Below are positions 10,248-63,094 of a stretch of 64,000 nucleotides of DNA, in pieces (position 1 is the first letter of the stretch; each line of letters opens with the position of its first letter). The DNA lies in assembly GCA_921293015.1 (NCBI GenBank), contig OV121087.1, forward strand, positions 11,110,501 to 11,174,500. The letters run 5' to 3'. Position numbers and translations under genes: made by a program. The notes under the pieces are model-generated. The model was not told the DNA's origin. It did not search any database and saw only the letters and a list, made by a program, of their open reading frames with translations. Origin of the DNA: Phorcus lineatus. Taxonomy: Eukaryota > Mollusca > Gastropoda > Trochida > Trochidae.

Positions 10248-12016
10248 ATGAAGGTAAGACACAGTTATTATCACTGGTTTGTTCACCTGATAAAGAGAAA
10301 AATATTTGCAAAGTTAAAAAGAAAGATTGGATGTTTATTGCTAGTGATGATAAATACAGTATTCGATAAGCATCGTGTAGCTGACTTTAAGTTTTAAATT
10401 TCTTATAGACATACGAGCGTACTGGAACAATAGCTATTGACAACAAACGAACATTCAATGTTTATTTTTGAGGCGTTTAATCATGAAAAATTTATACGCA
10501 ATAAAAAATAATATACAAATCCATTTATATGTATTTAAATGTCTGATGAAATATATATGTTGCATCCGAAAGTTTTGTTTATTTTTGTACGTATTGTTGT
10601 TCTTAGTATCTATATCTAGTATAAGAATTAAAGGCAAAGCAATGACTTTATGTTCAACATATTTATTACTTTAAAATATCTCTAATTTGATAGTTTTAGG
10701 ATTGGTGTAAATATATGAAAACCTGTTCTTGACATTGAACTCTCTTAAGAAAAAACACACACGTTACGATAATTAGATCATTATTCTTTGGGTCGTTTAA
10801 CTGGGCTTTTGTATAGCCTATCTACTTTTAGTTTTCTTTAAGTCATATTTAAAATGATGGAATTCTTTAATTCTTTTTGTAGAAAATACTGCAATATGTA
10901 TTACATGAGGGTATTGGACACTAGTATCATTGAAATATCACTGATAGCGTTAAATACAGATTTGTATTTTATATCATGGTTCGTACGTTAGGTCAAATGT
11001 TTTCTTTTGGGACTAATGATAAATAGTTGATAAATCAATCTACATGTTTTATTGAAAATATCTGCCAAATGTTTACCGATTGAAGCTTTAAGATAACAAA
11101 TCTTTCTTTAAACAACTCTAGTATCTCCTTTCAGATCGCCGTTTTCCTCTCGCTTCTGGTCAGCTTGACCGCAGCTGGACATCCATATTCTGGACACTTT
11201 AAGTCCGGGACACCTCATCTGCTGTTCGGATCAAAAACCGGAGTGTTTCCTTTGAAGGAGTTGAACAGTGACATTATTGGGCCCCTGGTGCTTGGCAACA
11301 AACTTGCAGCAATCATTGTTGGTAGAAACACCATTGCAGACATTCCCAAGGGTTTCTCTGGAAAAGGTCGAATAGAGCTAAGATCGGCAAACTCTCCTAA
11401 CCAAAACTTTGGATACTCCATGCAGGGTGGTCTTGTAGCTCAACAACAACTTCCAGAACCTAAACAGATCAAACCGAATCCTGTGGACTACTTGACGGCG
11501 AGAAGCACGGGCGGTTTGCCAATTCAAGGACCATTGCCCATCCAGCAAAACATCAATCAACCAGATCGTTTCAACCCATGGGCAGGACAGCTCAGATCCG
11601 AACCTCTTCTCAGTATAAGACAGAACGCTTTACCATCTTCTTTGAGACCCAGCCAAAGTATGTTCGGAACCGGACCATTCAGAACACTTACAATAAGACC
11701 TACAATAAACAGCATTAGCAACACGCCAAGCGCCATTGCAGACCGCTTAATTCAAAGATTACCTACCCTTTTCTCAAGTCGTCTTCAACTTCTTCAAAGG
11801 CCATCAATGAACATAAAGCCTAAGTTTGCTGCTACTGATTTGAGGCAAAGACTAAACTTCGGGCCTTTATCATTCCTACGATCTCAGCTTTTGAAGCTCG
11901 GCAATATTGGTATGGGGCCGGTCTTTAATCGTTTTGCCAAACAACAGAAAGTTGCGATTCCAGCATTTCTAACCGATCGAGTGTATAGACCTTTGCCAAG
12001 ACCTTTTCCTTGGTAA
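10248..12016 (+). CDS. Basic Gln/Pro/Arg-rich secreted protein (two exons)
   Basis: Exon 1 is ATG AAG (10248-10253) followed by donor GTAAGA; the intron is 10254-11134, ending in CTCCTTTCAG; exon 2 is 11135-12016. The spliced product is 295 residues. It begins MKIAVFLSLLVSLTAA, a clean signal peptide cleaved near Ala16-Gly17. The mature chain has a short structured-looking start (residues about 20-75, including VFPLKELNSDIIGPLVLG and IIVGRNTIADIPKGF), then a Gln/Pro/Asn-rich centre and an Arg/Leu-rich basic tail ending RPLPRPFPW. It has no Cys in the mature part and no transmembrane segment. I do not recognise a family. The Met-Lys mini-exon plus phase-0 intron is the same arrangement as in the other secreted genes here, which suggests co-membership of a secretory (mantle-type) gene set. 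Start choice rests on the signal peptide and splice sites; the second exon has no upstream ATG of its own. Confidence 0.8.
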
Positions 12017-13144
12017 CCTAGTAACAGCATCGGGAAATGTTTATCATGTCATGTAAACAAGAAGAGTTTAAACAGTCTCAAATGACAATTTATTTTACAT
12101 AACCGTTTCCATTACTCATTTTATAGGTTCGGGCGTTGATCGTCCTCCGTGAATTAAAATTGTCTAAATTCGTCGTACACTTGTTTTGTTTTAGTTTAAA
12201 TGGGACGCCGTGGTATGATGTATGAAATAAGATTTGTCAAAAGTTGAACTGCGTTATCTTCAGGAGTACCTATGAATTCATATCTTCAAAATAGATATAT
12301 ACCTTCATAATCTTTCATCGTATGGCGACACCGGCAAATTAGACTTGCCCCTTGGTCACTGTCGGGATTCATTAAAAAAGGATTTAATATCGACTTTGCC
12401 TCACTTTAAGTTTTTGAAAACAAACAGCTGAAATACGGCTAATGTCAAGTTATGTCCGAACTTTCGTTTCGAATTTTCTCACAATCTTACAAAATGTGAC
12501 ACATATATTATCGAGAAATACTCATTCAATAACATACATATTATTCTCTAGAAGTGGATATTTTACTTATATAATTCAAAATAAATTCCGTATGCCGGCA
12601 TGGTGACTTTCAGCAAAGTGATTCCGACAACTGAAACAGAAAATTCGATTGAAAAGGTCCCAATTTACGTATTTTTCTGTTCTTTGATATCATTAGCCTT
12701 GCCAATGTGGCTGTTATATTGTAATAACCTGCAAAACACACATTATTGTACAAAATGTAGAAATTAACTTATCCACCACGTCTTCAGTGGAAGCCAGTCA
12801 CGTTCCAATAATTTTCAAAGCGGTCACCGATTAATTCGGCGGTAACCTGAAAAAGGGATATATAAGGGCAAACAATAACCTAATCAAAGTGTATTTCGTA
12901 TCGTTTTATGCTTATTTCATTCCGAGAGATAATATACGCGGAGATAATGATCCGTCATTCTTACAAATTATTTTCTCACTCCCTTTAAAACAGACGGCGT
13001 TACAATAAGCCCGGACATTTTCCTAACGTTATTATTTATTAATATTGTCAGATGGTCAGTAGTTACGATCAAGAAGAAAAGTTTCTTCAATTATGTTTCA
13101 TAACAGCAATATTCAATACAGTATCCCTAGATGGAATATAATTC
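12017..13144. other. 3' flank and noncoding stretch
   Basis: An ATTAAA near 12154 could be the polyadenylation signal of the preceding gene. Otherwise I see nothing. Confidence 0.3.
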
Positions 13145-13192
13145 TTGGATCATCCTTTTACTTCCTTAAAAGTTGAACTCAGCTGTATCGCA

Positions 13193-13429
13193 ATGAGGAG
13201 TAGTAAATTGCCATCAGCGGAGCTCGTTCTGTTTATATCGCTGTGCCTATTTACTGTTCATTTAAGTCAACTGTTCGTTGGTAATAATGATATTCATGAT
13301 GATGCATTTCTACTGCACCTTCGTTCAAGCTTAAAGCTGTTCAACAGCGCTGCAACAAATCGAGGCAAGATGAACCTCGTAAAAACTTTTAAGACTGCCC
13401 AAATGGACATTTTTGCTAATATGATATAA
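13193..13429 (+). CDS. Candidate small secreted peptide (unproven)
   Basis: An ATG-initiated frame of 78 residues starts MRSSKLPSAELVLFISL and has a 17-residue hydrophobic stretch that could be a signal peptide or anchor, followed by a polar tail ending FANMI. No TATA box, splice site or homology supports expression. The stop codon lies three bases before a TTAA MITE, so the 3' end may have been altered by that insertion. It may be a chance frame. Confidence 0.2.
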   Translation: MRSSKLPSAELVLFISLCLFTVHLSQLFVGNNDIHDDAFLLHLRSSLKLFNSAATNRGKMNLVKTFKTAQMDIFANMI

Positions 13430-13432
13430 AAG

Positions 13433-15013: not shown

Positions 15014-15022
15014 GCGTATTTC
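15014..15022 (+). repeat. Target site duplication, left copy
   Basis: GCGTATTTC directly abuts the GGCAGTGTGAAG terminus of the foldback element. The identical nine bases follow its other end at 23018-23026. Confidence 0.85.
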
Positions 15023-17500
15023 GGCAGTGTGAAGTTGGTTACTTATTCCTTATTCCTTATTCGATATTCAACTTTTCCATTTTATTATTCGAAACAGTCT
15101 TCTGGGGGCACCAAGGAATGTTTGTACCACTCTGTATTTATACTCAAATGAAAGATAATTCAATTACCTATCCAATAACGTATACTACGTTTTAATAAAT
15201 AGAGGCATTCGTACCGTAAAGTCACAATAGACGTTACTGTGTGCAAATGACGATAAACCACTTCAAAGAGTATCATGGAATATTTGTACCACCTTGTACT
15301 TATACTCAAATGAAAGATAATTTAGTTACCTATACAATGAAGTATGAAATGTTATAATACATAGAGGCGGTCGTACCGTAATATCACAAAAAACGTTACT
15401 ATTTACTCAAAATGATAAACAACAACTTTTTATATTATCAAGGAATATTTGTACCACCTTGTACCAATACTCAAATGAAAGATAATTAAAAAACCTTTCA
15501 AATGAGGTATAAAACGTTATATTACATAGAGGCGGTCATACCGCAAAGTTACAATAAGCGTTACTATTTACCAAAAATGATAAACAACAACTTCTCAGAG
15601 TTTCAAGGAATATTTGTACCATCTTGTACCTATACTCAAATGAAAGATAATTTAGTTACTTATCAAATGAAATATATAACGTTAAAATACATAGAGGCGG
15701 TCGTACCGTAAGATCACAAAAAGGGTAACTGTGCACCAACTATTTTAGTTGTTTTATTCTTGTTCGCACACCAACATTTTAGAGTATCAAGGAATATTTG
15801 TACCACCTTGTACCTATACTCAAATCAAAGATAATTTAATTACCTATTTAATGAGGTATAATACGTTATAATACATAAAGGCGGTCGTACCGTAAAGTCA
15901 CAATAAGCGTTACTATTTACTCAAAATGATAAACAACAACTTCTTAGATTATCAAGGAATATTTGTACCACCTTGTACCAATACTCAAATGAAAGATAAT
16001 TAAAATACCTTTCAAATGAGGTATAAAACGTTATATTACATAGAGGCGGTCATACCGCAAAGTCACAATAAGCGTTACTATTTACCAAAAATGATAAACA
16101 ACAACTTCTCAGAGTTTCAAGGAATATTTGTACCACCTTGTACCTATACTCAAATGAAAAATAATTTAGTTACTTATCAAATGAAATATATTACGTTATA
16201 ATACATAGAGGCGGTCGTACCGTAATATCACAAAAAGCGTAACTGTGTACCAACTATTTTAGTTGTGTTATTCTTATTTGAACAACAACATTTTAGAGTT
16301 TCAAGGAATATTTGTACCACCTTGTACCTATACTCAAATGAAAGATTATTTAATTACCTATCTAATGAGCTATAATACGTTATAATACATAGTGGCAGTG
16401 ATACCGCAAAGTCACAAAAAGCGTAACTGTGTACCAACTATTTTAGTTGTGTTATTCTTGTTCGAGCACTAACATTTTAGAGTATCAAGGAATATTTGTA
16501 CCACCTTGTACCAATACTCAAATGAAATATAATTAAAAAACCTTTCAAATGAGGTATAAAACGTTATATTACATAGAGGCGGTCATACCGCAAAGTCACA
16601 ATAAGCGTTACTATTTACCAAAAATGATAAACAACAACTTCTCATAGTTTCAAGGAATATTTGTACCACCTTGTACCTATACTAAAATGAAATATAATTT
16701 ATTAACGTATCAAATGAAATATATAACGTTATAATACATAGAGGCAGTCGTACCGTGATATCACAAAAAGCGTAACTGTGTACCAACTATTTTAGTTGTG
16801 TTATTCTTGATCGAACACCAACATTTCAGAGTATCAAGGAATATTTGTACCACCTTGTATCTATACTGAAATGAAAGATAATTTATTAATGTATCCAATG
16901 AGGTATAAAACGTTATAATACATAGAGGCGGTCGTACCGTAATATCGCAAAAAGCGTAACCATCTACCGACTACTTTAGTTATGTTATTCTTGTTCGAAT
17001 ACCAACTCCTTTGAGTATCAAGGAATATTTGTACCACCTTGTACCTGTACGTAAATGAAAGCTAATTCAATTACCTATCCAATGAGGTATAAAACGTTAT
17101 ATTACATTGAGACGATCGTACCGTAAAGTCACAATAAGTGTTACTATTTACCTAAATTATAAACAACAACTTCTGAGAGTATCAAGGAATATTTGTACCA
17201 CATTGTACTTATACGGAAATGAAAGATGATTTAGTTACCTATCCAATGAAGTATAAAGCGTTATAATACATAGAGGCGGTCGTACCGTAATGTCACAATA
17301 AGCGTTACTTTTTACCCAAAATGATAAACAACAACTTCTTAGAATTTCAAGGAATATTTGTACCACATTGTACTTATACTCAAATGAAAGATAATTTACT
17401 TACCTATCCAATGAGGTATAATACTTTATAATACATAGAGGAAGCCGTACCGTAACGTCAAAATAAGCGTTACTATTTACCCAAAAGGATAAACAATTTG
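15023..17500 (+). repeat. Left foldback arm: tandem repeats of 163-186 bp
   Basis: About 14 units recur with landmarks CAAGGAATATTTGTACCACC, ACTCAAATGAAAGATAATTT, and GAGGCGGTCGTACCG. Units come in two lengths, differing mainly in a segment that reads either ACCAACTATTTTAGTTG (itself a small palindrome) or AAATGATAAACAACAAC. Small repeated open frames in the array are by-products of the repeat and not genes. Confidence 0.9.
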
Positions 17501-21239: not shown

Positions 21240-23017
21240 TGAGAACACAGTAACGTTTTTTGTGCTTTTACCGTACGACCGCCTGTATGTATAATAACGT
21301 ATTATACCCCATTTGATAGGTAATAAAATTGATATTGAATTGAATTAAGTTTAAGTACAAGGTGGTACAAATATTGTTTGATACTCTAAGAAGTTGTTAT
21401 TCGAACAAGAATTACACAACCAAAATATGGGCTACCTATTAACCATTCTTTTTTTACTTTACGGTACGACCGCCTTTATGTATTATAACGTTTCATACCT
21501 CATTGGATATAACCTATATATCCAACCTATATTGGATATATTCCTTGATACTCAAAGGAGTTGTTGTTCGAACAAGAATAATACAACTAAAACAGTTGGT
21601 ACATAGTTACGCTTTTGTGATATTACGACATGACCGCCTCTATGTATTATAACGTATTATAGCTCATTAGATAAGTAACTAAATTATCTTTCATTTGAGT
21701 ATAAATGCAAGGTGGTACAAATATTCCTTGAAACTCTAAGAAGTTGTTGTTTATCTTTTTTGGTAAATAGTAACGCTTATTGTGACGATCGTCTAAATGT
21801 GTTATAACGTATTATACCTCATTGCATAGCTTATTTAATTATCCCAAATTTGAGTATTGGTACAAGGTGGTACAAATACTCCTTGATACTCTAAGAAGTT
21901 GATGTTCAAATAAGAATAACACAACTGAAATAGTTGGTACACAGGTCCGCTTTTTGTGATATTACGGTACGATCGCCTCTATGTATTCAAACGTATTATA
22001 CCTTATTGGATGGTAATCAAATTATCTTTCATTTACGTATAGGTACAAGGCGGTACAAATATTCCTTGATACTCAAAGAAGTTGGTATTCGAACAAGAAT
22101 AACATAACTAAAGCAGTCGGTAGATGGTTACGCTTTTTGCGATATTACGGTACGACCGCCTCTATGTATTATAACGTTTTATACCTAATTGGATACGCTA
22201 ATAAATTATCTTTCATTTGAGTATATATACAAGGTGGTACAAATATTTCTTGACACTCTAAAATGTTAGTGTTCGAACAAGAATAAAACAACTAAAATAG
22301 TTGGTACACAGTTACGCTTTTTGTGATATTACGGTACGACTGCCTCTATGTATTATAACGTTTTATACCTCATTGGATACGTTAATAAATTATATTTCAT
22401 TTTAGTATATATACAAGGTGGTACAAATATTCCTTGAAACTCTGAGAAGTTGTTGTTTATCATTTTTGGTAAATAGTAACGCTTATTGTGACTTTGCGGT
22501 ATGACCGCCTCTATGTAATATAACGTTTTATACCTCATTTGAAAGGTTTTTTAATTATCTTTCATTTGAGTATTAGTACAAGGTGGTACAAATATTCCTT
22601 GATACTCTAAAAAGTTGTTGTTTATCATTTTGAGTAAATAGTAACGTTTTTTGTGATATTACGGTACGACCGCCTCTATGTATTATAACATTTCATACTT
22701 CATTGTATAGGTAACTAAATTATCTTTCATTTGAGTATAAGTACAAGGTGGTACAAATATTCCATGATACTCTTTGAAGTGGTTTATCGTCATTTGCACA
22801 CGGTAACGTCTTTTGTGACTTTACGGTACGAATGCCTCTATTTATTAAAACGTAGTATACGTTATTGGATAGGTAATTGAATTATCTTTCATTTGAGTAT
22901 AAATACAGAGTGGTACAAACATTCCTTGGTACCCCCAGAAGACTGTTTCGAATAAGTAAATGGAAAAGTTGAATATCGAATAAGGAATAAGGAATAAGTA
23001 ACCAACTTCACACTGCC
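21240..23017 (-). repeat. Right foldback arm: tandem repeats, inverted
   Basis: About 10 units, reverse complement of the left-arm units (GGTGGTACAAATATTCCTTG and TACGGTACGACCGCC landmarks on the plus strand). It is about 0.7 kb shorter than the left arm, as expected for unequal exchange between units. Confidence 0.9.
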
Positions 23018-23026
23018 GCGTATTTC
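23018..23026 (+). repeat. Target site duplication, right copy
   Basis: GCGTATTTC, identical to 15014-15022 and directly abutting the element end CACTGCC. Confidence 0.85.
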
Positions 23027-23275: not shown

Positions 23276-24382
23276 TTAATGAACAGCGACAATACCAACA
23301 CCGTTTCCGTGATAACCGTTTCCGTGTCCGTAGCCACCATATCCGTAACCAACTTGTCCAAGGCCGCTATGTGCAAAACCATGTCCGTAGGCGCCGAAAC
23401 CATGTCCATTGTAGAGACCACGTCCGTAGCCAAGACCGTGTCCGAGATCATGTCGATATCCTAAACCGTGAGCAACTCCAAGACCGAGACCATGTCCGTA
23501 TCCGGTGCCACGACCGACTCCAAGACCGAGACCATGTCCGTATCCACTGCCATGGGCAACTCCAAGTCCGAGACCATGTCCGTATCCGGTGCCATGAGCG
23601 ACTCCAAGGCCAAGACCGTGTCCGTATCCGTTGCCATGAGCGACTCCAAGACCGAGACCATGTCCGTATCCGTTGCCATGAGCAACTCCAAGGCCGAGAC
23701 CATGTCCGTATCCGTTGCCATGAGCAACTCCGAGACCGAGACCATGTCCGTATGCGTTGCCATGAGCGACTCCAAGACCGAGACCACGTCCGTATCCGTT
23801 GCCATGAGCGACTCCAAGGCCAAGACCATGTCCGTATCCGTTGCCATGAGCGACTCCAAGGCCAATACCATGTCCGTATCCGTTGCCATGAGCGACTCCA
23901 AGACCGAGACCATGTCCGTATCCGTGGGAAACACCGAAACCGACACCATGTGCAACGCCGTGTCCATGACCAAGACCTCCGTAGCCATAGCCGTTACCGT
24001 GTCCTACTCCGTTGTATCCGTAACCATTTCCATAGTAACCACTGCCGAGAGCAGAGGCACAGAAAGCCAGGAGAACGGAGATAGTGACCTGCAATGATAT
24101 TATGAGAAGTATAAACCTTACAATTTGAGGGGTTTCAAGATCTTTTACATGATGATTTATGAAAGAAACTAAATTTTAGTGAGCATTAATATTTGTACAA
24201 TATTTTACAACGATCTTTTCATAATATCAAGCATTTTGATTTTTAAGAAGAACAGAATCAACCACGATAAGAGTCATCTTCGACAATACAAACAAATAAA
24301 AGATAGAAGTAAATAAAGAAGATAAAGGGATTGGATGGTAAATTTTAAAAATTCTGAATTAGTCGCGTTCTCCTACCTTCAT
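23276..24382 (-). CDS. Gly/His-rich 14-residue-repeat secreted protein (minus copy)
   Basis: Exon 1 is ATG AAG (24382-24377) with donor GTAGGA; the intron is 24376-24089 and ends ATTGCAG; exon 2 is 24088-23276. The product is 272 residues. It begins MKVTISVLLAFCASALGSG, a signal peptide, then GYYGNGYGYNGVGHGNGY. About 11 tandem copies of YGHGLGLGVAHGNG follow (42 bp per unit), then a looser Gly/His/Tyr tail ending GNGVGIVAVH. Gly alternates with His, Leu, Tyr or Val throughout; there is no Cys after the signal peptide. The fold is probably disordered or beta-turn-rich. Regularly spaced His suggests metal binding or pH-dependent assembly, as in the GHG-rich squid beak proteins; that is analogy, not homology. 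A TATA box lies about 60 bp upstream. It is divergent from, and paralogous to, the gene at 26290-28212. Fully open antisense frames here are a by-product of the 42-bp period. Confidence 0.88.
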
Positions 24383-26215: not shown

Positions 26216-26223
26216 TATATAAG
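26216..26223 (+). promoter_or_regulatory. TATA box of the plus-strand Gly/His gene
   Basis: GGGTATATAAGAGG, with TATATAAG 67 bases before the ATG. Confidence 0.75.
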
Positions 26224-26289: not shown

Positions 26290-28212
26290 ATGAAGGTACG
26301 TGTAAGATTATCAACAGAGACTATTTATTCCTTTGATGCAAGTAGTTAAGAATATAGCTTAAAGGCACTATCGTGCACCAATATTTCGTATTTCACAACT
26401 AATGCACAAATAATGCATGTATCTCACTATATTAAAAACGACCAACAGTTAGATATCCTACCATTTAAGTTATTCGCCAAATAAATACGTATCCAGGTGA
26501 TAAAATCAGTCTTCAAAGACCAGAAGTATATAATGCAACGTTGCAATACATCTGCATGAACTACGATTTCGAAAATATTTGAATTTTGTTAATACCCGGA
26601 AAAACAAAAAAGGCAGACCGCTATGGTAAATTAATATCAACGCTGATACTGTGTTTATGAGATAAGTAGAAATCCAAATTGCTTTCATAGATAAGATAAT
26701 AGTAAATTCAATAGCCGCAAACATTACCAGTGCAACCGTTTGCCACAGTCTATATTTTTCTCCTTTTTGTGCACAGCCGACCTAACAGTTTTGTTATCTG
26801 TAAGCCGACTTCGGCCTTCTAATTTTTTTCATAATTGATTATACATTTTTATTGCTTATAAGTGAGCTACATGTAAAGTGAGTGCATACGTCACAATATT
26901 TCTTAAAATGGCCAATTCGAAAGGGAAAATGTGTGCATTAGTGCCTTTACATTTAATTAACCTTAAAGAAAAGGTTGTTGAAACCTTACAAGAAACCCGG
27001 GTAGATAGAATGATACAAATTTAGATTTTGAAACGACAGTCATCAACCATGTGTTCCGTGTTAGGATTAAACTTATGTGTAAGACCGAGCTATTACTCTA
27101 TATCTATGACATATACCAATATTTCGATTTGTCCGTGCATTTAAAAAATAGGTTTTGCATCCAGCCATTGATATCACAATGATTCGACATCATCAAATAC
27201 ATAAATCTTGATTTAACGACGTGAAAAACCTAACGACTTGAACGTCATGAACGTGATAGTGCCTTAATTGCACTACTTGATTATTGGGTTGCGACTTTTA
27301 ACTATAAATGATAAATCAGGATATCTTTAACATCTTCTAAACTCTTGCTGATAGGTATCATAGAAGACATTTAGATGACATCCTCGATGGTTAAAAAATG
27401 CACTAAAAAGAATTAATGTTTTTCCTCTTCAGGTCAATATCGCTCTCGTCCTTGCTTTTTGTGCAACTGCTCTCGGCAGTGGTTACTATGGCAACGGATT
27501 CAACGGAGTAGGACACGGCAATGGTTATGCCACTGGATACGGATATGGACACGGTCTCGGTCTCGGAGTCGCTCATGGCACCGGATACGGACATGGTCTC
27601 GGCCTTGGAGTCGCTCATGGCGCCGGATACGGACACGGTCTCAGTCTTGGAGTAGCTCATGGAACTGGTTACGGACACGGTCTTGGGCTTGGAGTTGCTC
27701 ATGGCAACGGATACGGACACGGTCTTGGCTTTGGAGTTGCTCATGGCACCGGATACGGACACGGTCTCGGTCTTGGAGTAGCTCATGGCACTAGTTACGG
27801 ACACGGTCTTGGACTTGGAGTTGCTCATGGCAACGGATACGGACACGGTCTTGGCCTTGGAGTTACTCATGGGAGCGCATACGGACATGGTCTCGGTCTT
27901 GGGGTCGCTCATGGCACCGGATACGGACACGGTCTTGGCCTAGGAGTTGCTCATGGCCATGGCGCCGGACACGGTCTTGGTCTTGGAGTTGCTCATGGCA
28001 ATGGATACGGACATGGTCTCGGTCTTGGAGTCGCACATGGCACCGGTTACGGACACGGTCTTGGTCTTGGAGCTGCTCATGGCACCGGATACGGATATGG
28101 TCTCGGTCTTGGAGTTGCCCATGGCAGTGGATACGGAGTTGCTGGACGTGTTGGTTTCGGACATGGTAATGGTTACTACGGAAACGGCGTTGGACTCCTT
28201 GCTGTTCATTAA
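26290..28212 (+). CDS. Gly/His-rich 14-residue-repeat secreted protein (plus copy)
   Basis: Exon 1 is ATG AAG (26290-26295) with donor GTACGT; the intron is 26296-27432, ending TTCCTCTTCAG; exon 2 is 27433-28212. The product is 261 residues, starting MKVNIALVLAFCATALGSG (signal peptide), then GYYGNGFNGVGHGNGY, about 14 copies of YGHGLGLGVAHGTG, and a tail ending GNGVGLLAVH. The true frame of exon 2 contains no Met at all, so the gene is invisible to ATG-based ORF finding; antisense and off-frame readings dominate there instead. Signal peptide, N-terminal GYYGNG and C-terminal AVH match the minus copy, so they are paralogs from an inverted duplication, with copy number of the repeat differing. 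The function is probably an extracellular structural protein of a hardened or mineralised layer; this is inferred from composition. Confidence 0.9.
26359..27267. mobile_element. Probable TTAA-flanked insertion in the Gly/His gene intron
   Basis: The left end TTAAAGGCACTATCGTG and the right end ACGTGATAGTGCCTTAA are inverted repeats with one indel and lie 0.9 kb apart, each with TTAA outermost. A second inverted copy of the end (TTAGTGCCTTTA near 26938) suggests nested or rearranged copies. It fills most of the 1.1-kb intron and carries no gene that I can support. Confidence 0.5.
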
Positions 28213-31754: not shown

Positions 31755-34700
31755 TTAGTAGCCATTTGACTGTCTGTTTGACTTGATGGAGTTGCTTGAG
31801 TACCCGGTGCTTAAAGACCCACCGGTTTGGGACCCGTTGCTGTAACTGCTGCCAGACCCTTTTCGGTTCTGGGAGTTGAAAGAACTGCTCGGATTCCGGA
31901 AGCTACCAATGTTGTATCCACTTCTTGAACCCGAGGATTGTGACAGTGCGCCAGTGAATTTATTGCCGCCTGCGAAGCCGCCGTTGTTTGAATTGAAAGT
32001 TGATCCATGAAGATCATTTCCACTGCTACTTCCATATCCATTGCTTTCGCCTTTGCCAGAAAGTGTACCCCCAAATTGCCTGTTGTTACCGTATCCGCCG
32101 CCGCTGCTAAGGCCATTACTACTTCCGCTATACCCTCCATTTCCGCCTTTACCGGAACTAGCAAATCCTTGGTTACTGTTTCCATAGCCGCCGCCGGAAT
32201 TAGAAATATGGATATCTCTGTTAGCATTACCGCTGTATCCCCCAGTTCCACCTATGTTTGAACCAGATCTTAAAAATGCTTGATTACTGTTTCCAGAGCC
32301 AGAATTCGAAGCATGAAGATCTCCGATATTGTTACCATTTCCGCTGTATCCTCTACTTACGCCTTTGCCGGAATTAGTTCCTACGAATCCTTGGTTACTG
32401 TTTCCATATCCAGAATTTGAAGCATGAAGATCTCCGTTATTGTTATCATTTCCGCTATATCCTCCACTTACGCCTTTGCCGGAACCAGCTCCTACGAATC
32501 CTTGGTTGACGTTTCCATAGCCAGAATTTGAAGCATGGATATTTCCGATATTGTTACCATTTCCGCTATATCCTTCACTTACGCCTTTGCCGGAACCAGC
32601 TCCTACGAATCCTTGGTTGATGTTTCCATAGCCAGAATTTGAAGCATGGATATTTCCGATATTGTTACTATTTCCGCTATATCCTCTACTTACGCCTTTG
32701 CCGGAACCAGCTCCTACGAATCCCTGGTTACTATTTCCATAGCCGCCGTCGGAGTTAGAAGCATGGATATCTCCGATATTGTTACTATTTCCGCTGTATC
32801 CTCCACTAACGCTTTTGCCGGAACCAGCTCCTACGAATCCTTGGTTACTGTTTCCATAGCCGCCGCCGGAATTAGAAGCATGGATATCTCCGATATTGTT
32901 ACTATTTCCGCTATATCCTCCACTTACGCCGCTGCCGGAGCTAGCTCCTACGAATGCCTGATTACTGTTGCCATAGCCGCCGCCGGAAGTAGATGCATGG
33001 ATATCTCTGATATTGTTAGTATTTCCGCTATATCCTCCCCTTCCGCCATTATTAGAATTTGAAAATTGTTGGTTATTGTTTCCAAAGCCGGCAGAATTAG
33101 AAGCATGGATATCTCCGATATTGTTAGCATTACCGCTATATCCTCCCCTTCCGCCTTTGCCGGAACTTGCTCCTACAAATCCTTGGTTACTGTTTCCATA
33201 GCCTCCTGAGTTATCAGCATGAATCGAACCTGCAAAAGCATTGTTCCCGATCCTATTGTTAACGGCCCTACCGAAACCGCCTTTGCCGGCGTTGATGGTT
33301 CCAAGAACTTGATTACCATTTAGGGCACCTGGTAGTGGGCGCCTTGGCACGTTTCCTCCATTTCCCAGCTTTGTGACAATGGTGTCAGAACCAAATTGGT
33401 CAAGGTTGTTCAAAGTTTGATCGAGATTTTCGAAGATGTCTAGGTTAAAAAGTCCATCGTTTGCACCATCTTTCTGATTAGAGTTGTAAACTTGACCGGA
33501 AGTGACCACAAGGGATATACCAAGAAGAAGAAAGACCTGTAATAAATTTGAAACATTTGTAACATACGATAGAACCGCATATTATGACATAAACAGCGTT
33601 AAGTGATAATAACCAGGAATGTTAGTTTTCCGTGCAAACATGTTTTTTGTGTGCATAACTTGAAAACAAAGTAAAAATACCCGAGGCATTTATCGATTTT
33701 GTGAATAGCTGTTAGCATATTTGTCAGACTAAGTGAGCTGGATTGTATTAACAACCCGAAATCTTCAGTAGCGTCGAATGTAAAATCTCCTGAGGAAAAT
33801 AGTGCTATTTGATATGGTATTCAGCATTCTGATTGAATAAATATCTACTTTATGCTTTTACGAAAAAACAACTTGTTGAGGTCTACACGTTGCTGGTGTT
33901 ATGATGAGGCATTGAGTAACATTAGTTGTAAAATAACCTGAACTCTCCGTGTTTTAGATGTCATTAATAGTTAACGAAACATTTATAATATCATACTTGT
34001 ATCTATCACATATATTATCATGAGTTGATAAACTTATTGCAATATAAAGTTATAGTTGTAATCTGATGTGTGTTGAAAACGTAGTATTTGGCATTTGTGT
34101 TACATTCAATATTCGATTGATAGATATTTACATATATATTTTGAAGACACTTACTATATGCCAATACAGTCTTATCTACGTAAAGCAAGATTATTTGTAA
34201 GTGTAAAATCTCCATTTTTACAAAATGTTCCCCAATACAAATTAATATGCATGTATGCAATATTATCTTCAGATGGTAAATAATCTCATTATTCAACCCA
34301 GTCAACCATAGTCGTAGGGGACACTAGCAAGTATAAAACAAAATCAATGGCTGCTATTTCTATGTGAACATCTTTTAATTATTTGAGGTAGAAAACGGAA
34401 TACCGGGCCATAGCTTAAATGAACCTGGTACGTTCATTTGGAACAACTAATTGTGATCGAAAACATTATATTGCAATTAGTAACATTTATTTTCTTCTCA
34501 TTTGTCTAAAAAAAACGAGTTACTGCGCCTTTAAACTGATATGAAAACTCATAATTTTCAAATGCTCCTTTTCGAATCCATAGCTGAAATTACGTGGTAG
34601 ACGAATCCATTTAAAGCCAGCGTATTTTTAGTAAATATAATGAGCTATTATAATCTTCTTTTTTTAAAAACAATACAATAATATTTAGGGAGAGTACAAA

Positions 34701-43884: not shown

Positions 43885-43892
43885 TATATAAG
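43885..43892 (+). promoter_or_regulatory. TATA box of gene A
   Basis: GTTGTATATAAGGAGCGAGG; TATATAAG lies 64 bases before the ATG. The stretch to the ATG, including CAGGATTCCTG and AAGTCACATC, is nearly identical in genes A, B, C, E and the decayed D. Confidence 0.85.
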
Positions 43893-43948: not shown

Positions 43949-44781
43949 ATGAAGGTGAGTGTCAACTAGGTTGAAAACTATGATAAGAACATCCGTAGAA
44001 TGATATTTGATCAAAATGAAGTCTATCAATAGTTCTTACTTATTTTGAAGGTGCCTTTTACTGAGATATTCACATTTAGAAAATTGGATTTCTAGAAGAA
44101 AATTTTACAAATAATTTTGAGTAAATTTAACTCTATGGGCAGTTCGTCATGTAAAGAATACGAAGCTTTATCAAAGACAGTTACATGATTATTATGAAAC
44201 ATGTTTATGATTGTTAATTGCAATAGGTTATTATTAACACAAGAACGTCATCCTTTCTTTACAATTGAGAAGTTCCCCTAAAAAAATTGCTTTTACATAC
44301 ATATATCGTTCCTCAATATCCTGCTCAGACTTACACAGTTTCTATGGAAACCTGTTTCCTCTGTGTTTTTTATCTGGTTTCAGAGAAACAGAATCACCCT
44401 ATAATATTAAATAGATATGCATTGTCTTAAAAGTTAAAATTTACCAAGGTTAATTACATTTTTCCTCTTTTCTCGCAGGCCGTATTTGCTCTCCTCGCAG
44501 TTTTCTGCGCATCTGCTTATGCCAGTTACTATGGTGGCAACTATGGTGGACACTCCCACGGAGGAGTATATGCTGCTGCCGGAAGTGGCCGTGGAGGTTT
44601 TGGTGGCGGTCTTGGAAATGGTTATGGAGGTGGCTATGGCGGTTATGGTGGAGGCTATGGAGGTGGACTCGGCCGTGGTGGATACAGAGGAGGACTTGGT
44701 GGAGGTCTTGGTGGACGCGGACTCGGGGGACGTGGCGGATATGGCGGATATGGTGGATATGGCGGATACGGTGGACATTAA
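43949..44781 (+). CDS. Gly/Tyr-rich secreted protein, gene A
   Basis: Exon 1 is ATG AAG (43949-43954) with donor GTGAGT; the intron is 43955-44478 ending TCTCGCAG; exon 2 is 44479-44781. The product is 102 residues: signal peptide MKAVFALLAVFCASAYA, then SYYGGNYGG, a short His/Val/Ala part (residues about 28-42), and Gly/Tyr/Leu/Arg low complexity with GGYGGYGGGYGGG and a GGYGGYGGYGGYGGH end. More than half of the mature chain is Gly. The composition and size match shematrin-type Gly-rich shell matrix proteins, although I cannot claim orthology. Relative to gene B it lacks a GGYGNYGGY segment. Probably secreted from an epithelium into a fibrous or mineralised layer. Confidence 0.9.
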
Positions 44782-52206: not shown

Positions 52207-52706
52207 TTCCTCAATGTCCTTCTCAGACTAACACAGTTTCTATGGAAACTTGTTTCTTCTGTGTTTGCATCTGGTTTCAGAGCAACAGAATCACCCTATA
52301 ATATTAAATAGATATGCATTGTCTTCAAAAGTTAAAATTCACCAAGGTTAATTTCATTCTCCCTCTTTTATTGCAGGCCGTATTTGCTCTCCTCGCAGTT
52401 TTCTGCGCATCTGCTTATGCCAGTTACTATGGCGGCAACTATGGTGGACACTCCGGCGGAGGAGTATATGCTGCTGCCGGAAATGCCCGTGGAGGTTTTG
52501 GTGGCGGTCTTGGAAATGGTTACGGAGGTGGCTATGGCGGTTATGGTGGAGGCTATGGAGGTGGACTCGGCCGTGGTGGATACGGAGGATACGGAAACTA
52601 TGGCGGATACGGAGGAGGACTTGGTGGAGGTCTTGGTGGACGCGGACTCGGTGGACGTGGCGGATATGGCGGATATGGCGGATACGGCGGATACGGTGGA
52701 CATTAA
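51591..52706 (+). CDS. Gly/Tyr-rich secreted protein, gene B
   Basis: Exon 1 is ATG AAG (51591-51596) with donor GTGAGT; the intron is 51597-52376, ending TTATTGCAG; exon 2 is 52377-52706. The product is 111 residues: MKAVFALLAVFCASAYA signal peptide, SYYGGNYGGHSGGG, then Gly/Tyr/Leu/Arg repeats ending GGYGGYGGYGGYGGH. It is nearly identical to gene A except for about ten substituted or inserted residues, mainly an extra GGYGNYGGY. An open frame begins upstream of the acceptor at 52314, but splicing from Met-Lys restores the full signal peptide seen in every paralog, so that upstream ATG is not the start. The intron has gained an interspersed element (52067-52190) and a TA tract. Confidence 0.9.
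52067..52190 (+). mobile_element. Short interspersed element in the gene B intron
   Basis: Inverted counterpart of 40300-40420, again ending at a TA tract. It is absent from the gene A intron, so it inserted after the A/B duplication or was lost from A. Confidence 0.6.
52175..52204. repeat. TA microsatellite
   Basis: Uninterrupted TA repeat at the 3' edge of the intronic element. Confidence 0.85.
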
Positions 52707-53642: not shown

Positions 53643-54070
53643 TTATAATAATAATAATAGTCTATTTGTAAGGCGCTTTTCCATGCGCAGTACATGCTCA
53701 AAGCGCACACAGGAACAAGAGAATAGGGATTTGAACTTATTTTGATAATGCAAGTCTGTAGAAATATGTCTTAGGTACATGCAGAAAGAGGAATAGTCGT
53801 TACAGAGTCGTATTTCTTCAAGAAGACTATTCCAGGCTGTTGCAGCAGAATGTTCGAATGATCTTTGGCCAAATTGTTTGGTGCGGACACGAGGGACAAC
53901 AAGTAGTCTCTTGTTCTCAGATCTGAGGGATTTAGTTGGCTGGTAGACAAGTAGGAGGCTGCTATGATATGCAGGAGCCATTCCTGAAAGACACTTAAAT
54001 GAGAGGCAACATAGTTTATAAGTAATTCTGTATTCAATTGGGAGCCAGTGAAGTGATTGCAAAACTGGAG
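53643..54070 (-). mobile_element. 5'-truncated LINE (L2/CR1-like ORF2 C-terminus)
   Basis: The minus strand encodes the C-terminal part of a non-LTR reverse transcriptase: LHWLPIEYRITYKLCCLSF, LLVVPRVRTKQFGQRSF and TAWNSLLEEIR are the hallmark blocks after the RT domain in L2/CR1-like LINEs. It reads open to a 3' tail GCGCTTTGAGCATGTACTGC...GGAAAAGCGCC and a (TTA)n end at 53643-53658, typical of this group. Everything 5' of the last 140 codons is missing, as expected for target-primed truncation. Flanking sequence is continuous with copy A (45755-45765), so the insertion is precise and younger than, or lost from, the other copy. Confidence 0.8.
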
Positions 54071-54186
54071 ATATTACTGCTAATGGTCATGTGAGAGTAG
54101 GAATTGATAGAACAAATAAAATCAGAACTATGTAAGTCCAAAGAAGTCAAAAAGTCCAACGAAAGGCCATCAAATCTGTCATTCAT

Positions 54187-56484: not shown

Positions 56485-56492
56485 TATATAAG
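56485..56492 (+). promoter_or_regulatory. TATA box of gene C
   Basis: GTTGTATATAAGGATCGAGG; TATATAAG lies 65 bases before the ATG. Confidence 0.85.
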
Positions 56493-56549: not shown

Positions 56550-57657
56550 ATGAAGGTGAGTGTCATCTAGAACGAAATATTTGAACTCTAATTTAAACAT
56601 TAAAGAGCTTGCGTTGGAAAACATTTGTAGAATGATAATTGAGCAAAACAAAATCATTGGTCTTTCTTTGTTAGGAAAAAAGATTTCTTTCAATGGACAA
56701 ATACATCAAGAAAGTTTTTATATGCATATGGTTTGATTTATTGATGTTCTCTTCTGTACATCACAGTACGGTTTGTACACAAAACGTTTAACAGGTACGG
56801 TACATATGCTATTGGAAATATAAATCATCATAAATTAATGATTACACAAGTATTTTAAAAGAACAAAGATCTTTTAAGAAAACTTTAATATGCTATATTC
56901 TTTAGCTTTACATGATTATAATTCTTATCTTGCTGTTCTCATGGATAGTTGGCAATGAATAACGTGATTTAATTCTTGGACATTTAAAGCTACTTGTTAA
57001 TTCCCTCAAAGTGGCGTTGAGACACATACTTGACAATGACCTGGTTAAGCAAGTAATACATTGAAGAAATGTAAAAGTAAAGTTCGTGCATAAGTATTTT
57101 AGACTTAACATGAGGTGTTATTCAAAAGTAAACTGACCCACCATGGTTTGAAAGGCAATTAAGTAATATTGATTAGAACGAGCTACGTGATGTAGTTAGT
57201 TTTAATCTGTTTGGTGCAAACTCTGACTTTTAAAACTTGAAAAGCTCAGTTGGCGATACATGTATATGAATTGACATTTGAATCACTTGAAAGTTTACTT
57301 TAAGATGTAAATGACATCATAATTTTCTTGTTTCAGACCGTTTTCGCTCTCCTCGCAGTTTTCTGCGCATCTGCTTATGCCAGTTACTATGGCGGCAACT
57401 ACGGTGGCAACCCGGCCGGAAGCGTGTATGCTTCAGCCGGAAGTAGCTACAACAACGGTGTAGGATATGGTGCCGGTCTTGGAAACGGCGTTGGTTACGG
57501 AGGTCTTGGTTACAGCGGCTATGGCGGATATGGTGCAGGCTTTGGCGCTGGACACGGCCGTGGCGGATACGGAGGATATGGCAACTATGGTGGATACGGA
57601 GCTGGACTTGGTGGAGGTCTTGTCGGACGTGGATATGGTGGATACGGTGGACACTAA
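56550..57657 (+). CDS. Gly/Tyr-rich secreted protein, gene C
   Basis: Exon 1 is ATG AAG (56550-56555) with donor GTGAGT; the intron is 56556-57336, ending TTGTTTCAG; exon 2 is 57337-57657. The product is 108 residues. The signal peptide is MKTVFALLAVFCASAYA. The mature chain starts SYYGGNYGGNPAGSVYASAG, continues SSYNNGVGYGAGLGNGVGYG, and finishes in Gly/Tyr repeats with GGYGGYGNYGGYGAG and GGYGGH. It differs from A/B by the NPAGSVYASAGSSYNN block and by Ala in place of some Gly. Same inferred role as A and B. The conserved stop-to-AATAAA spacing and intact frame mark it as functional. Confidence 0.9.
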
Positions 57658-57694: not shown

Positions 57695-57710
57695 GATATT
57701 ACGTAACATT

Positions 57711-58971: not shown

Positions 58972-59934
58972 ATGAAGGTGAGTTTCAACCACTACTTTCC
59001 CCCTTTCTCCAAAACATCAATTACACTAATGCATATTGATAACAATACTTTAGCTATTTGGGCTTAGCGCTGCTAACTATTCCCCCAAATGTAAGAACAG
59101 CATCTCAGGTAAAAATCAGGGAATTCTCAGAGGAAAATGTTAGGCACAACATTATGAAAGATTACGTAATCATCTAGGATTTTCGGAAAATGATTTTCAT
59201 TCAAATAGCGTTTTAATAATTGTCATTCAAATAGCATTTTAATACTTGCATTTGCAAAATCCTGGCCTTTTTGCGGCTCAAAGGAATATTGTATTTTAGA
59301 ATGTGAAAAACGTGTGGGATTTTTTACCTCTGTCTCAATTTTCTATATCCTTTTGGACGCAAAAAGCGCCCTTTCCCTATAAGCGCCCCCTTAGTACATT
59401 TGTAACTCAAAATAAAATAAGAGCCTCCTAATAACTTTAACTATGTGACGGAAGTCGCAATTAAAACATCATTAGTCATGGAGCAACAAGTTTAGTCTTC
59501 TATGTATCTAAATTTACATGCAAAAAAACGTCCTCGTGTGTTTTCATCCAATAGATTACAAATAACAGAACACTTGTAAACTCCAACATTTAATCTAATT
59601 AACATGCTTGATTCTTTTCTGCTCATGCTAGTTTCCGCCATGGCGGACGTGGCGGCAACAGAGGCCGTAACTCAACCAGATGTTTTTATGCTGCCACCAT
59701 CAACTACAAAGAGGATATGGTTACGGTCTATGAAACAGTCTCGGCTATGGCAGATAAGGCAAAAATACAATGAATGCAATGGAGCCGTTCTTGGTCAGGG
59801 CGGATAGGTAGGACAATGCAATTATGTCGGATACGGAGGAGAGTTCGCCAGAGGTCTTGGTGGACGTAGTGTTTGCGGACGAGGTCTTCGTTGACGGAGA
59901 TATGGTGGACAAGGTGGTTGCGGTGGACAATTAA
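58972..59934 (+). pseudogene. Gly/Tyr-rich secreted protein, decayed member D
   Basis: The leader, ATG AAG and donor GTGAGT (58972-58983) are well preserved, as is CAGGATTCCTGCAGACC upstream, but the TATA box has changed to TGTATGTATGGG. Exon 2 is recognisable from about 59612: TTTTCTGCTCATGCTAG corresponds to TTTTCTGCGCATCTGCTTATGCCAG of the paralogs, with deletions in the signal peptide region. Later pieces encode scattered paralog fragments (GGYGGEFARGLGGR-like, ending GGQ then a stop). No single frame spans it: frameshifts and stop codons such as TGA at 59782-59784 interrupt it. AATAAA follows at 59964-59969. A decayed host paralog, older than E's lesion. Confidence 0.8.
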
Positions 59935-59963
59935 GCACATTCTGAACCTCAAACTTATCATGA

Positions 59964-59969
59964 AATAAA
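59964..59969 (+). terminator. Relic polyadenylation signal of D
   Basis: GAAATAAAATAAC, 30 bases past the residual stop codon. Confidence 0.5.
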
Positions 59970-59984
59970 ATAACATCATGAGCA

Positions 59985-60395
59985 TCATGACAGTGTTATC
60001 ATTTACTTACATGCATGCGAGAAATAATGATAGTTTCCTCTTTAGCTGCGGATAAAAGGAATAAGTAATGAAAAAGATAAAACATTTTTGATAAACGAAT
60101 ACTAAACTAGGAACATTTAATGAAAAAAGATTTTAAAAAAAAAGCTACAGTACTATTATACCCACCATTTAGATAGAGAGTTAGTCTATAGAGTGCCCAC
60201 TATTATCGACCGGAACTGATAAAGTGGAAAAGAACAGTTTTGCTTTGTGGAAAAACTACCCATTAGTTTTGTTTTAGATTGACACCTATGTTGCAAATTA
60301 TCTGAAAAAATCAGGTAGGTAATGCTTGATAGGGGAACAGGATATGATTAAACCCCTGGAATTAACTCACCCTTTTCTAGTTTATCATCGGCGTC

Positions 60396-60459
<64 letters not shown>

Positions 60460-61179
60460 AAACTGAAAACAGGAATTCTATTCACTAGCAAAAATGCTCT
60501 CGCTGATATCTTATTTGCAAATTTGCTATCTTTGTTCTTCTGATTGCATTGGCTATATTAATTCATTGCCAAATAAAATACAACCTAGCTCAACCTTCCT
60601 TCAGTGAAATACAGTTATTCTTTTGCTTGAATTTCTTTATCAATACAAACTGAACTCCAAAAGACATGTTACACCTCTTCAAATTGGAATATGATAAAAG
60701 GTTATGCGCTCAGCGAAACTTGGTTTGTCGCGTTATAACATTCCATAATTTTAGTTTTTTGTGCTAGAATAATAGTCTTGAAAATTTATTGATAGTTATG
60801 TCCTCCCCATATTCTTTATTGGTAGGGCCATTTGTCTTTTTTCGATCATAGAAAATGGAAGTGAAACTTTTAAAAAAGTAATAAAATTAGCCAAAATGTT
60901 ATTGTCTACTTTGAAAATGCATGCACGTTTGTTTGAAATGAAATTAGTTATTTTTTGGATAAGTTTTATTTTTTAAACAATGTAACAGAGTAAGTAAAGT
61001 ATTTTATTTTAGCACAAGAGACTAAACTTATGGGATGTAAAAACACAACAAACCATGCACTAATTTTTTGCTTAAGAAACAAGCACCGCAAATGCTGCAT
61101 GCCCAACTTACCTTAAACCGATTTCGTTTTGCTTAGGAAATTCAATTATTAATGTTCCTGCTGATCATCAATCTGATTT
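59985..61179. other. Spacer between D and E
   Basis: No supported gene. It contains the CAT microsatellite listed separately. Confidence 0.35.
60396..60459 (+). repeat. CAT/ATC trinucleotide microsatellite
   Basis: About 20 units with one CAC interruption. Confidence 0.95.
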
Positions 61180-61967
61180 GGCTAACTTAACTTGACGTTT
61201 TTAGAAGAGTTCTCTTGAGGCCGGTTGTAAAACGATGTAATCTATTTCGTAAATACTATCATAGATTTTAAAATCATATCTTCGTCTTCAGTGGTGATTT
61301 ACTGTGACGCAGGATAACCTGGTAAAAGTTCGTTCGCCAAAGATTGCAGTCCCCCATTTAGTAGAAACCTATTCTAGATGTACCAAGATTAAAATGTCAG
61401 TATTTTCATTACTGATAAATCGAGCATATATAATGCATAGCGACAACCGCTTTCCTTCTCTATAAGTACATGCATACGTTCAAAATTACTCCCTCTGCAT
61501 AAAAATGCCACATAAATGATGACTTTAAGGACTCTTTATTACCGTTATTAGGTGCATTAAATGCAGCCCTCGCAATAAGTTCTAACCTCAGATGACGAAA
61601 TCTTGCAGAACAAACATAGAACAAACATCTAAGTCAAGAGGTCAGAATTTATTTAATTTTTTTTATCAATACTATTTCAATAGATCATGAAAAGAAGAAT
61701 CAAATAACACTCCAAATTTTCTTGTCATCATATATTTAAGGCATCAGTGATTTTTAAATGATTTTTCTTATGTGCTAACCATGCATTGCATAAAAGGAAT
61801 GAATTTTTTTGCTTTTTCTTTATATTTGCATTAATGATGAAACGTACCTTTGTACGTATATTATTTTTATGCCGCTGCCAAAACTTTATCCTCTACAATT
61901 TAAAAAATTCATTTAATGATGTCGACTTATGAGGCAAATGTATGTTTTTATTGTTTGATAGAAATTG

Positions 61968-61975
61968 TATAAAAG
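61968..61975 (+). promoter_or_regulatory. TATA box of gene E
   Basis: AATTGTATAAAAGGACAGAGG; TATAAAAG lies 65 bases before the ATG. It differs from TATATAAG in A-C. Confidence 0.8.
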
Positions 61976-62032
61976 GACAGAGGTTTATCAATGTCTTCAC
62001 AGGATTCCTGCAGAACTACACCAAGTCACATC

Positions 62033-62973
62033 ATGAAGGTGAGTGTCAACTTAAAGAAAACTTTGACCTACGCTAACTTTGAGCTAACATTTGTGGAATG
62101 ATAATTTAGCAAACAAGATTTATTGGTCTAACAAACTTAAATATTTCAATAGAATAGCATGCTTTTTAAATGAAATTGATTTGATTCATTCCAGTTCTCT
62201 TTATCAAATAATCATGTCACTTTAGTACATTTGATTAACAAACCTTTGTTGTTATCTACATAAACAGTGCATATGTTATCAACAACATAAATCACCAAAG
62301 GTTATTATAATTAATATTACATATAGATTTTATAAACATTCGGATGATGTACAAAAACCTTTTATATGCTATATTCTTTAACTTTCATGGATTAAAATTC
62401 CTATCTTGCTTTGAGCAACTTGATGAGTCTCTGCAAGTAACGTTTAGAATATATTCCAATGGCATGGTCAAACAAGTTCCAAATTTTTTAGAAGGAAGAT
62501 GAGTTGGTTATGCAATACAGACTGATTACAATAGTTTGAAAAGCGATTGAGTAATATTGATTAGACGAGTTAATGTAGTTAGTCTTCATCTTTTTGTACG
62601 CAAGCTCTGATTTTTAAAACTACAAAAGCTCAGTTGGCTATACATTCCTTTGAACTGACACTTTCAGGTATATGACCTTAATAAATCGTGAAAATTGTAG
62701 CCTTCACAAACTGACATCATCCTTTTCTTGTCGCAGGCCGTTTTCGTTCTCCTCGCAGTTTTCTGCGCATCTGCTTATGCCAGTTACTATGGCGGCAACT
62801 ACGGTGGCAACCCAGCCGGAAGCGTTTATGCTTCAGCCGGAAGTAGCTACAACAACGGTGTAGGATATGGTGCCGGTCTTGGAAACGGCGTTGGTTACGG
62901 AGGAAACGGTCTTGGTTACAGCGGCTATGGCGGCTATGGTGCAGGCTATGGCGCTGGACTTGGCCGTGGTTGA
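62033..62973 (+). CDS. Gly/Tyr-rich secreted protein, gene E, shortened by an internal stop
   Basis: Exon 1 is ATG AAG (62033-62038) with donor GTGAGT; the intron is 62039-62736, ending TGTCGCAG; exon 2 starts at 62737. The frame encodes MKAVFVLLAVFCASAYA, then SYYGGNYGGNPAGSVYASAG like gene C, and meets TGA at 62971-62973, giving 80 residues ending GLGRG. The same frame stays open afterwards (YGGYGNYGGYGAG... to SGH) until TAG at 63061-63063, which would make 110 residues. The paralogs have GGA (Gly) at this codon, so a single G-to-T change explains the stop. Signal peptide, splice sites, TATA box and AATAAA are intact, so transcription is likely. It is either a recent pseudogene, a nonsense allele, or a shortened but still useful Gly-rich protein. 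Confidence 0.75.
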
Positions 62974-63094
62974 TACGGAGGATACGGAAACTATGGTGGA
63001 TACGGAGCTGGACTTGGTGGAGGTCTTGGAGGACGTGGATATGGCAGATACAGTGGACACTAGTCATCATCCTGTGAATGTGATATTGATATGT

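Follow-up and report, generated by a model that had tools for sequence, protein, structure and literature searches.

Structural genes with split signal peptides are already known in insects. Among Drosophila signal-peptide genes, phase-0 introns peak at position 5, with cuticle proteins as the main annotated class, and the peak survives homology reduction; for start-codon introns, 5' exon shuffling between genes has been suggested (Nielsen and Wernersson, PMC1626468). In Anopheles, 86% of the intron-bearing CPR genes are interrupted in the signal peptide, and their first coding exon measures 3–36 nucleotides (nt) with a mode of 12 (PMC2259329), while concerted evolution of the main exon has been described in Drosophila cuticle genes (PMC2793513). 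In molluscs, shell-matrix genes, shematrins included, lie in tandem arrays in the pearl oyster (PMC4759782), shematrin-like proteins with Gly/Tyr repeats occur in the zebra mussel (PMC9210306), and the shuffling and turnover of low-complexity domains has been reviewed (PMC4897951). Here we describe 64,000 nt of the 957.8 Mb genome of the gastropod Phorcus lineatus (contig C12, positions 11110501–11174500; hereafter the window, with positions counted from its first base), in which genes for putative secreted proteins begin with a first coding exon of only two codons, Met-Lys. The window belongs to what is likely a large mollusc array of genes that each comprise two exons and encode repetitive secreted proteins; in this array exon 2 has probably turned over after the copying of whole units.

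A gene was modelled where a two-codon exon 1 could be joined to a (C/T)AG acceptor that restores phase 0 and leads into the hydrophobic part of a signal peptide. In the window, ATGAAG is followed by GTA or GTG at nine sites (10248, 26290, 43949, 51591, 56550, 58972 and 62033 on the plus strand; 24382 and 36438 on the minus strand), and at eight of them such an acceptor is present, with introns of 288–2896 nt across which the two-codon exons would be spliced. An initial annotation had proposed eight genes of this form and one decayed copy. All eight do have an in-frame acceptor, with the reservation that one of them, GY5, is truncated by a stop codon; the decayed copy, GY4d, was recognised correctly, the site at 58972 having kept its promoter and exon 1 and lost its signal-peptide exon, with only frameshifted exon-2 remnants left. 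The features are listed below, with protein lengths in amino acids (aa).

10248–10253 (+): QPR exon 1 (Met-Lys); its best TATA-like box scores no higher than those of random flanks
11135–12016 (+): QPR exon 2; protein of 295 aa; single genome match; no Pfam match
24377–24382 (−): GH1 exon 1 (Met-Lys); weak donor GTAGGA; TATAAG at −61
23276–24088 (−): GH1 exon 2; 272 aa; 42-bp repeats
26216–26223 (+): GH2 TATATAAG box, at −74
26290–26295 (+): GH2 exon 1 (Met-Lys); head-to-head with GH1
27433–28212 (+): GH2 exon 2; 261 aa; 42-bp repeats
36433–36438 (−): SNG exon 1 (Met-Lys); intron of 2896 nt
31755–33536 (−): SNG exon 2; 595 aa; repeats of ~111 bp; single genome match
43885–43892 (+): GY1 TATATAAG box, at −64
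43949–43954 (+): GY1 exon 1 (Met-Lys)
44479–44781 (+): GY1 exon 2; 102 aa
51591–51596 (+): GY2 exon 1 (Met-Lys); TATA at 51526
52377–52706 (+): GY2 exon 2; 111 aa
56550–56555 (+): GY3 exon 1 (Met-Lys); TATA at 56485
57337–57657 (+): GY3 exon 2; 108 aa
58972–58977 (+): exon 1 of the decayed copy GY4d, which retains leader and donor but has a degraded TATA box
about 59774–59934 (+): GY4d exon-2 remnant, frameshifted; nearest among the four GY exons compared is that of array gene GY6 (76% over 154 nt)
62033–62038 (+): GY5 exon 1 (Met-Lys); TATA at 61968
62737–62973 (+): GY5 exon 2; 80 aa; in-frame stop at 62971–62973; homologous sequence continues to 63063

The length of the repeat unit varies with the class (42 bp in GH, 9–27 bp in GY, ~111 bp in SNG), and Gly makes up 42–59% of the window GY proteins past residue 18. 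QPR had been labelled Gln/Pro/Arg-rich, a label that does not describe it, since its most frequent residues are Leu, Pro, Ser, Gly and Arg. GY5 (80 aa) is shorter than its siblings (102–111 aa), which lack the in-frame stop, and the end first given for the group, 63063, lies past that stop. Because of its long intron, SNG exon 1 is the weakest-linked exon 1 in the window. No Pfam family, the R&R chitin-binding domain included, scored above cut-off in six of the eight window proteins and four other array proteins scanned against Pfam only. A keratin-associated model gave one below-cut-off match each to GH1 (E 0.19) and GH2 (E 0.0016), which were judged compositional and set aside. Adjoining GH1 are 165/184-bp tandem-repeat arrays at 15022–17496 and 21613–23018, in opposite orientations and ~4–6 kb apart, with arms of up to 899 nt that are 95% complementary.

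The two-codon exon is supported by its frequency and by its conservation. On both strands of the window, ATGAAGGTR matches 11 times, where 100 shuffles gave 1.48 matches on average and never more than 7; for the two matches that are not among the nine sites, 1782 (−) and 12308 (−), no signal-peptide exon was found within 4.5 kb, in a search that excluded the 500 bases beside the window. Conservation among the five GY copies runs from the TATA region through the donor (to GTGAGT), while good alignment of the intron bodies is confined to the closer pairs GY1/GY2 and GY3/GY5, with short alignable pieces elsewhere, and similarity between GY1 and GY3 resumes 3 nt upstream of exon 2. Because conservation spans the TATA region to the donor while the intron bodies diverge, exon 1 is supported independently of transcripts. 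Four of the five GY copies have their best TATA-like box at −64 or −65, and GH2 has its own at −74; at most 2% of random flanks reach these scores, and at least 30% reach those of GH1, SNG, QPR and GY4d.

The same architecture recurs outside the window. The region read comprised C12:11000001–11110000, the window, 11174501–11272500 and three 3-kb pieces up to 11291271, excluding the 500 bases before the window and the gaps after 11272500. It contains 28 modelled genes between C12:11062514 and 11291271 (~229 kb), in each of which a phase-0 intron separates a two-codon first exon from a signal-peptide exon 2, and two more such genes lie elsewhere (C7:7.51 Mb and C12:16.98 Mb). Codon 2 encodes Lys in 24 of the array genes, Gln in three and Pro in one. 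The Gln and Pro starts (ATGCAG or ATGCCG) belong to four close paralogues, all outside the window, of which A3, the only one profiled, matches the core signal peptide described below. A Met-Lys start common to the family, as first proposed, therefore holds in the window and breaks down in these four genes, so the constant of the array is the two-codon exon and not Met-Lys. In c193 and c256 a second ATGAAGGTR site could also join exon 2, and the site behind the TATA box was chosen. Two highly similar gene pairs inside the array (C12:11177066 and 11181631; 11274115 and 11289761) appear to be recent duplications.

Most of the 28 models were found via the two-codon feature itself, and two checks were made independently of it. 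A scan for acceptor, signal peptide and open frame returned 34 rows, comprising 25 modelled genes with a two-codon exon, one secretory-looking exon without one and eight rows judged by eye to be non-secretory; three modelled genes fell below its thresholds. A second scan accepted any ATG mini-exon of 1–8 codons with a good donor up to 4 kb upstream and covered 24 of the 28 genes (all except GY2, GY5, GY6 and GY7). In 16 of the 24 no candidate other than the two-codon exon came up, in four it ranked best, and the donors of the other four were below cut-off. Outside the models, six two-codon candidates, GY4d included, occurred in 562,442 bases (~0.043 per 4 kb), and the 29 ATGAAGGTR sites in the first 264 kb read consist of 20 exons 1 of modelled genes, GY4d and eight others. 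Chance matches as the source of the window sites were rejected on the basis of the shuffles and the mini-exon candidate scan. A scan of the stretch read for single-exon open reading frames with a Met start and a signal peptide gave four candidates, none of them among the two-codon-exon genes, which bears out the earlier statement that ATG-based gene finding misses these genes; they can be missed because the coding part of exon 1 is six bases long.

Genome-wide, the start signature is concentrated at this one locus. The strict pattern TATAWAAG-N(30–60)-ATGAAGGTRAG occurs 18 times (6 in the reversed control). The array accounts for 11 of these hits, and each of the 11 is followed by a signal-peptide exon 2. 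Among the seven hits outside the array, exon 2 was convincing in two, four had short hydrophobic frames only and one had none, within 1.5 kb of flank. Variants of the pattern had no hit in the array: a scrambled ATG gave five genome hits (control, 7), AAA as codon 2 four (reversed control, 10), a codon-3 split 40 (reversed control, 4) and a codon-4 split five (control, 4). By eye, 33 of the 40 codon-3 hits are one dispersed repeat, present in 33 places on many contigs, in which a TATA box is followed by ATGAAAAAGGTGAG or a close variant, forming a three-codon start before a donor-like site. A broad pattern (TATAWA, codon 2 AAG or CAG) returned 49 rows, 13 in the array (12 genes) and 36 outside, against 47 reversed-control hits genome-wide. 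The idea that a two-codon TATA start is a general habit of secreted genes found no support, the hits outside the array numbering 7 against 6 in the control (strict) and 36 against 47 (broad). Taken by itself, the motif ATGAAGGTRAGT is more frequent across the genome than its reversed form (479 against 279), in a count that also takes in ordinary internal exon ends.

The mature sequences of the window had been described as four unrelated kinds. Between the window classes, blastn found no promoter or intron similarity. The starts of exon 2, however, are similar between GH and GY (DNA p 0.001–0.0095, six pairs tested), and array intermediates connect the two classes. A leave-one-out signal-peptide profile gave p ≤ 0.0013 for 11 of 13 core representatives, and 0.0013 for c062 as well, with none of 3000 shuffles reaching GH1, GH2 or GY2. 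The Gly/His and Gly/Tyr classes are therefore related, and the window contains at most three independent classes. No DNA-level similarity was found between the exon-2 start of QPR or SNG and that of GH or GY. At the protein level the exon-2 starts did score for QPR/SNG (p 0.002) and SNG/GY (p 0.027–0.034), which we put down to common hydrophobic composition because a position-specific test gives no support. Core genes resemble one another with a mean z of 2.0 for both the leader and the exon-2 start, while the leaders of QPR, SNG, c068 and c219 have a mean z of −0.14 to 0.35 against the core, and those of QPR and SNG are no closer to GY leaders than random ATG flanks are (p 0.41 and 0.63). The GH2 leader approaches the GY leaders weakly (p 0.006), the unrelated site 1782 having given p 0.013 in the same test. 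A blast search of the downstream flanks gave one 26-nt match between GH2 and SNG (E 0.008). The two dispersed genes (L009, C7:7509853; L022, C12:16976617) have the same TATA/two-codon start; L009 carries the core-family signal peptide, so one member seems to have left the array.

GH1 and GH2 lie head-to-head, and a second pair, c200/c202, is found ~65 kb away in the opposite order. Promoters are alignable between the two pairs (78% over 439 nt and 74% over 311 nt), and because the promoter regions of both members align, the whole head-to-head pair was evidently copied by inversion, with GH1/c202 and GH2/c200 each retaining their own promoter through the duplication. Between GH1 and GH2, exon 2 matches at 82% over its first 75 nt, with the match beginning 3 nt before the exon and 0.69 of the signal-peptide third positions identical, whereas the promoter, leader and intron are not common to the two genes (leaders 0.63, shuffles 0.59 ± 0.06). 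For GH2 and c200, the corresponding values are 0.75 for third positions and 0.72 for leaders. The GH1/GH2 pattern would fit homogenisation of exon 2 or its exchange across intron 1, and with 16 codons compared it is suggestive only.

Taken together, most of the array looks like the product of whole-gene duplication and exon-2 repeat turnover, likely from one ancestral gene. Whole units would have been copied in tandem and by inversion; exon 2 would then have diverged through repeat expansion, loss and probably exon-level homogenisation, while the start exon and signal peptide were retained. In each unit a small fixed block would hold the promoter, the start codon and the intron, and the long repeat exon could change length or convert with the start untouched. 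Descent with exon-2 repeat turnover, one of the two origins proposed initially, is supported for most of the array (the core leader and exon-2 z of 2.0; the whole-pair duplication) and may not extend to the outlier genes, which show no homology to the core. Judging from signal peptide and composition alone, the products are likely abundant extracellular structural proteins of shell, periostracum, operculum or another secreted matrix. The sequence itself shows the architecture, the array, the homology within the core family and the concentration at a single locus; splicing, expression, secretion, tissue and function, together with a benefit of keeping promoter and start apart from an unstable repeat exon, are what we infer.

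Several observations weigh against this explanation. The gene models are built from genomic sequence alone. The secretory-looking exon that the first feature-independent scan returned without a two-codon exon, at C12:11207595 (−) inside the array, has a good acceptor, encodes 422 aa rich in Gly, Asn and Ser and has no two-codon or other mini-exon candidate within 6 kb. Two core representatives, c224 (p 0.30) and C12y (p 0.07), fail the leave-one-out profile, and SNG (p 0.063), QPR (0.074), c219 (0.11) and c068 (0.47) show no core homology by it; the last four are therefore counted as outliers, with c062 doubtful. The GH1 leader is no closer to the GY leaders than random flanks are (p 0.22). 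Similarity of the 75-nt leader tracks exon-2 similarity across all 30 genes (r 0.79, 0 of 2000 permutations). A set of 13 core representatives and five outliers still gives a correlation (r 0.35, 0 of 5000), which is no longer significant once the outliers are left out (r 0.13, p 0.17). The correlation is thus carried by close paralogues and by the contrast between core and outliers, and we do not claim deep co-inheritance of leader and exon 2.

The outliers QPR, SNG, c068 and c219, perhaps with c062, share the architecture only, and they may have arisen by descent, capture or convergence. For them convergence deserves serious thought, although we lean towards other origins: an intron after codon 2 may arise easily, because AAG encodes Lys, a usual residue at the second place of a signal peptide, and at the same time supplies the exon side of a strong donor (AAG|GTRAG); structural genes of compact build would then tend to retain one intron there. 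This would agree with the AAG or CAG found as codon 2 in 27 of the 28 array genes (in part a result of how the genes were found), with the absence of AAA mini-exons when any codon was allowed in the 24 genes scanned and of any genome-wide enrichment of the AAA pattern (4 against 10 in the control), and with the insect cuticle genes, which share one phase-0 intron position across proteins unrelated by descent (PMC1626468). However, TATA-plus-two-codon starts are not enriched outside the array (36 rows, against 47 reversed-control hits genome-wide), and four or five independent cases within one 229-kb locus would require an extra cause for their clustering. It is very improbable that the mini-exons are themselves chance matches and that the real starts lie in other, unseen upstream exons. 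Such a reading could draw on the purely genomic basis of the models, on the lack of a strict TATA box at the usual place in QPR, SNG and c068, and on the introns of SNG and c068, which are near 3 kb and carry a chance match probability of ~3% each, yet it is hard to square with 11 matches where 1.48 are expected, with GY conservation that ends right after the donor and with the 16 of 24 genes tested that offer no alternative candidate.

The other origin proposed initially, in which recombination within intron 1 repeatedly placed one promoter/start-exon module in front of unrelated repeat exons of secreted proteins, we regard as quite unlikely. It would account for an exon 2 that GH1 and GH2 have in common without a common promoter, leader or intron, and for the four or five of 28 array genes that have an unrelated exon 2 at the same phase-0 position. 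A captured module should, however, carry the core leader, which is absent from QPR, SNG, c068 and c219; the GH1/c202 and GH2/c200 promoters persisted through pair duplication; and GH1/GH2 can be explained equally well by conversion of exon 2 or by constraint on the codons combined with rapid decay of non-coding sequence. The proposal therefore finds some footing in GH1 and GH2, which share exon 2 and not the promoter, and loses it in QPR and SNG, which share no detectable promoter with the other genes. A more novel reading, which we hold to be unlikely, is that the locus serves as a chromosomal nursery for extracellular-matrix proteins, the TATA promoter and two-codon start exon acting as a fixed docking end while signal-peptide/repeat exons are exchanged, converted or recruited at the phase-0 intron. 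QPR, SNG, c068 and c219 would then represent exons that were recruited and whose promoters diverged afterwards, GH1/GH2 would reflect a recent exchange, and new matrix proteins would arise with a ready-made start. Under whole-unit copying with exon-2 turnover, the explanation that we favour, QPR and SNG, as outliers, are the interesting part that is left over.

Other features were seen in passing. Near the window edge, two exon-like open reading frames at 3935–5570 (−) belong to an AMP-binding acyl-CoA-synthetase-like gene (PF00501, PF13193), an ordinary enzyme gene. A 147-aa frame at 53643–54086 (−) has no Pfam match and looks like the terminal part of a LINE-type reverse transcriptase. In the genome, the molluscan haemocyanin beta-sandwich domain has 16 matches, in two groups of eight, and it was found in none of 14 control genomes. 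These matches mark the genome as that of a mollusc, and two haemocyanin genes of eight units each would suggest a gastropod.

Repetitive matrix proteins that are specific to one lineage often lack recognisable relatives, so that their origins are difficult to follow. In this array the start exon, the intron position and, in the core family, the promoter and signal peptide persist as the mature parts change, providing a handle for finding members across molluscs, and the array offers a means to ask whether such proteins originate through exon capture or through descent accompanied by turnover of the repeats. Shematrins carry a basic Lys/Arg-Tyr motif at the C terminus, whereas GY1, GY2 and GY3 end in GGYGGH without a basic C-terminal motif. 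Compared by description only, the array resembles the shematrin and shematrin-like shell proteins of bivalves in being molluscan, in its Gly/Tyr-rich repeats, in its tandem arrangement and in the fast turnover of its repeats, and a two-codon first exon goes unmentioned in the available parts of these accounts (PMC4759782, PMC4897951, PMC9210306). A literature search for a molluscan two-codon first exon, which covered few subscription papers, found none, the available part of a pearl-oyster nacrein promoter study (PMC3439604) included, and short peptide words taken from the array proteins turned up in no paper. By description, the moth pseudofibroin/cadhezin-type silk genes are similar in having a short exon 1 and a long repetitive exon 2 (PMC11906653). 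The Drosophila Sgs glue genes, compared by gene structure and not by sequence, likewise have two coding exons, an intron in the signal peptide, a repeat-rich exon 2 in several members and a history of local duplications, inversions and conversions, but they are insect genes and their intron is phase-1 at amino acid 10 (PMC10835880). With insect cuticle genes the array shares a short coding exon 1, mostly phase-0 introns and a signal-peptide intron that is often the only one (PMC1626468, PMC2259329), as well as arrays, gene conversion that homogenises the main exon and an intron position common to proteins unrelated by descent (PMC2793513, PMC1626468). It differs from the CPR genes in that the array proteins scanned have no R&R chitin-binding domain, and from insect cuticle genes in the position of the split, typically after codon 4 (position 5) in the latter and after codon 2 here (PMC1626468, PMC2259329). 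Relative to the literature searched, what appears to be new is the placing of the split after codon 2, together with its persistence throughout a large molluscan array and its presence in mature chains that are unrelated to one another.

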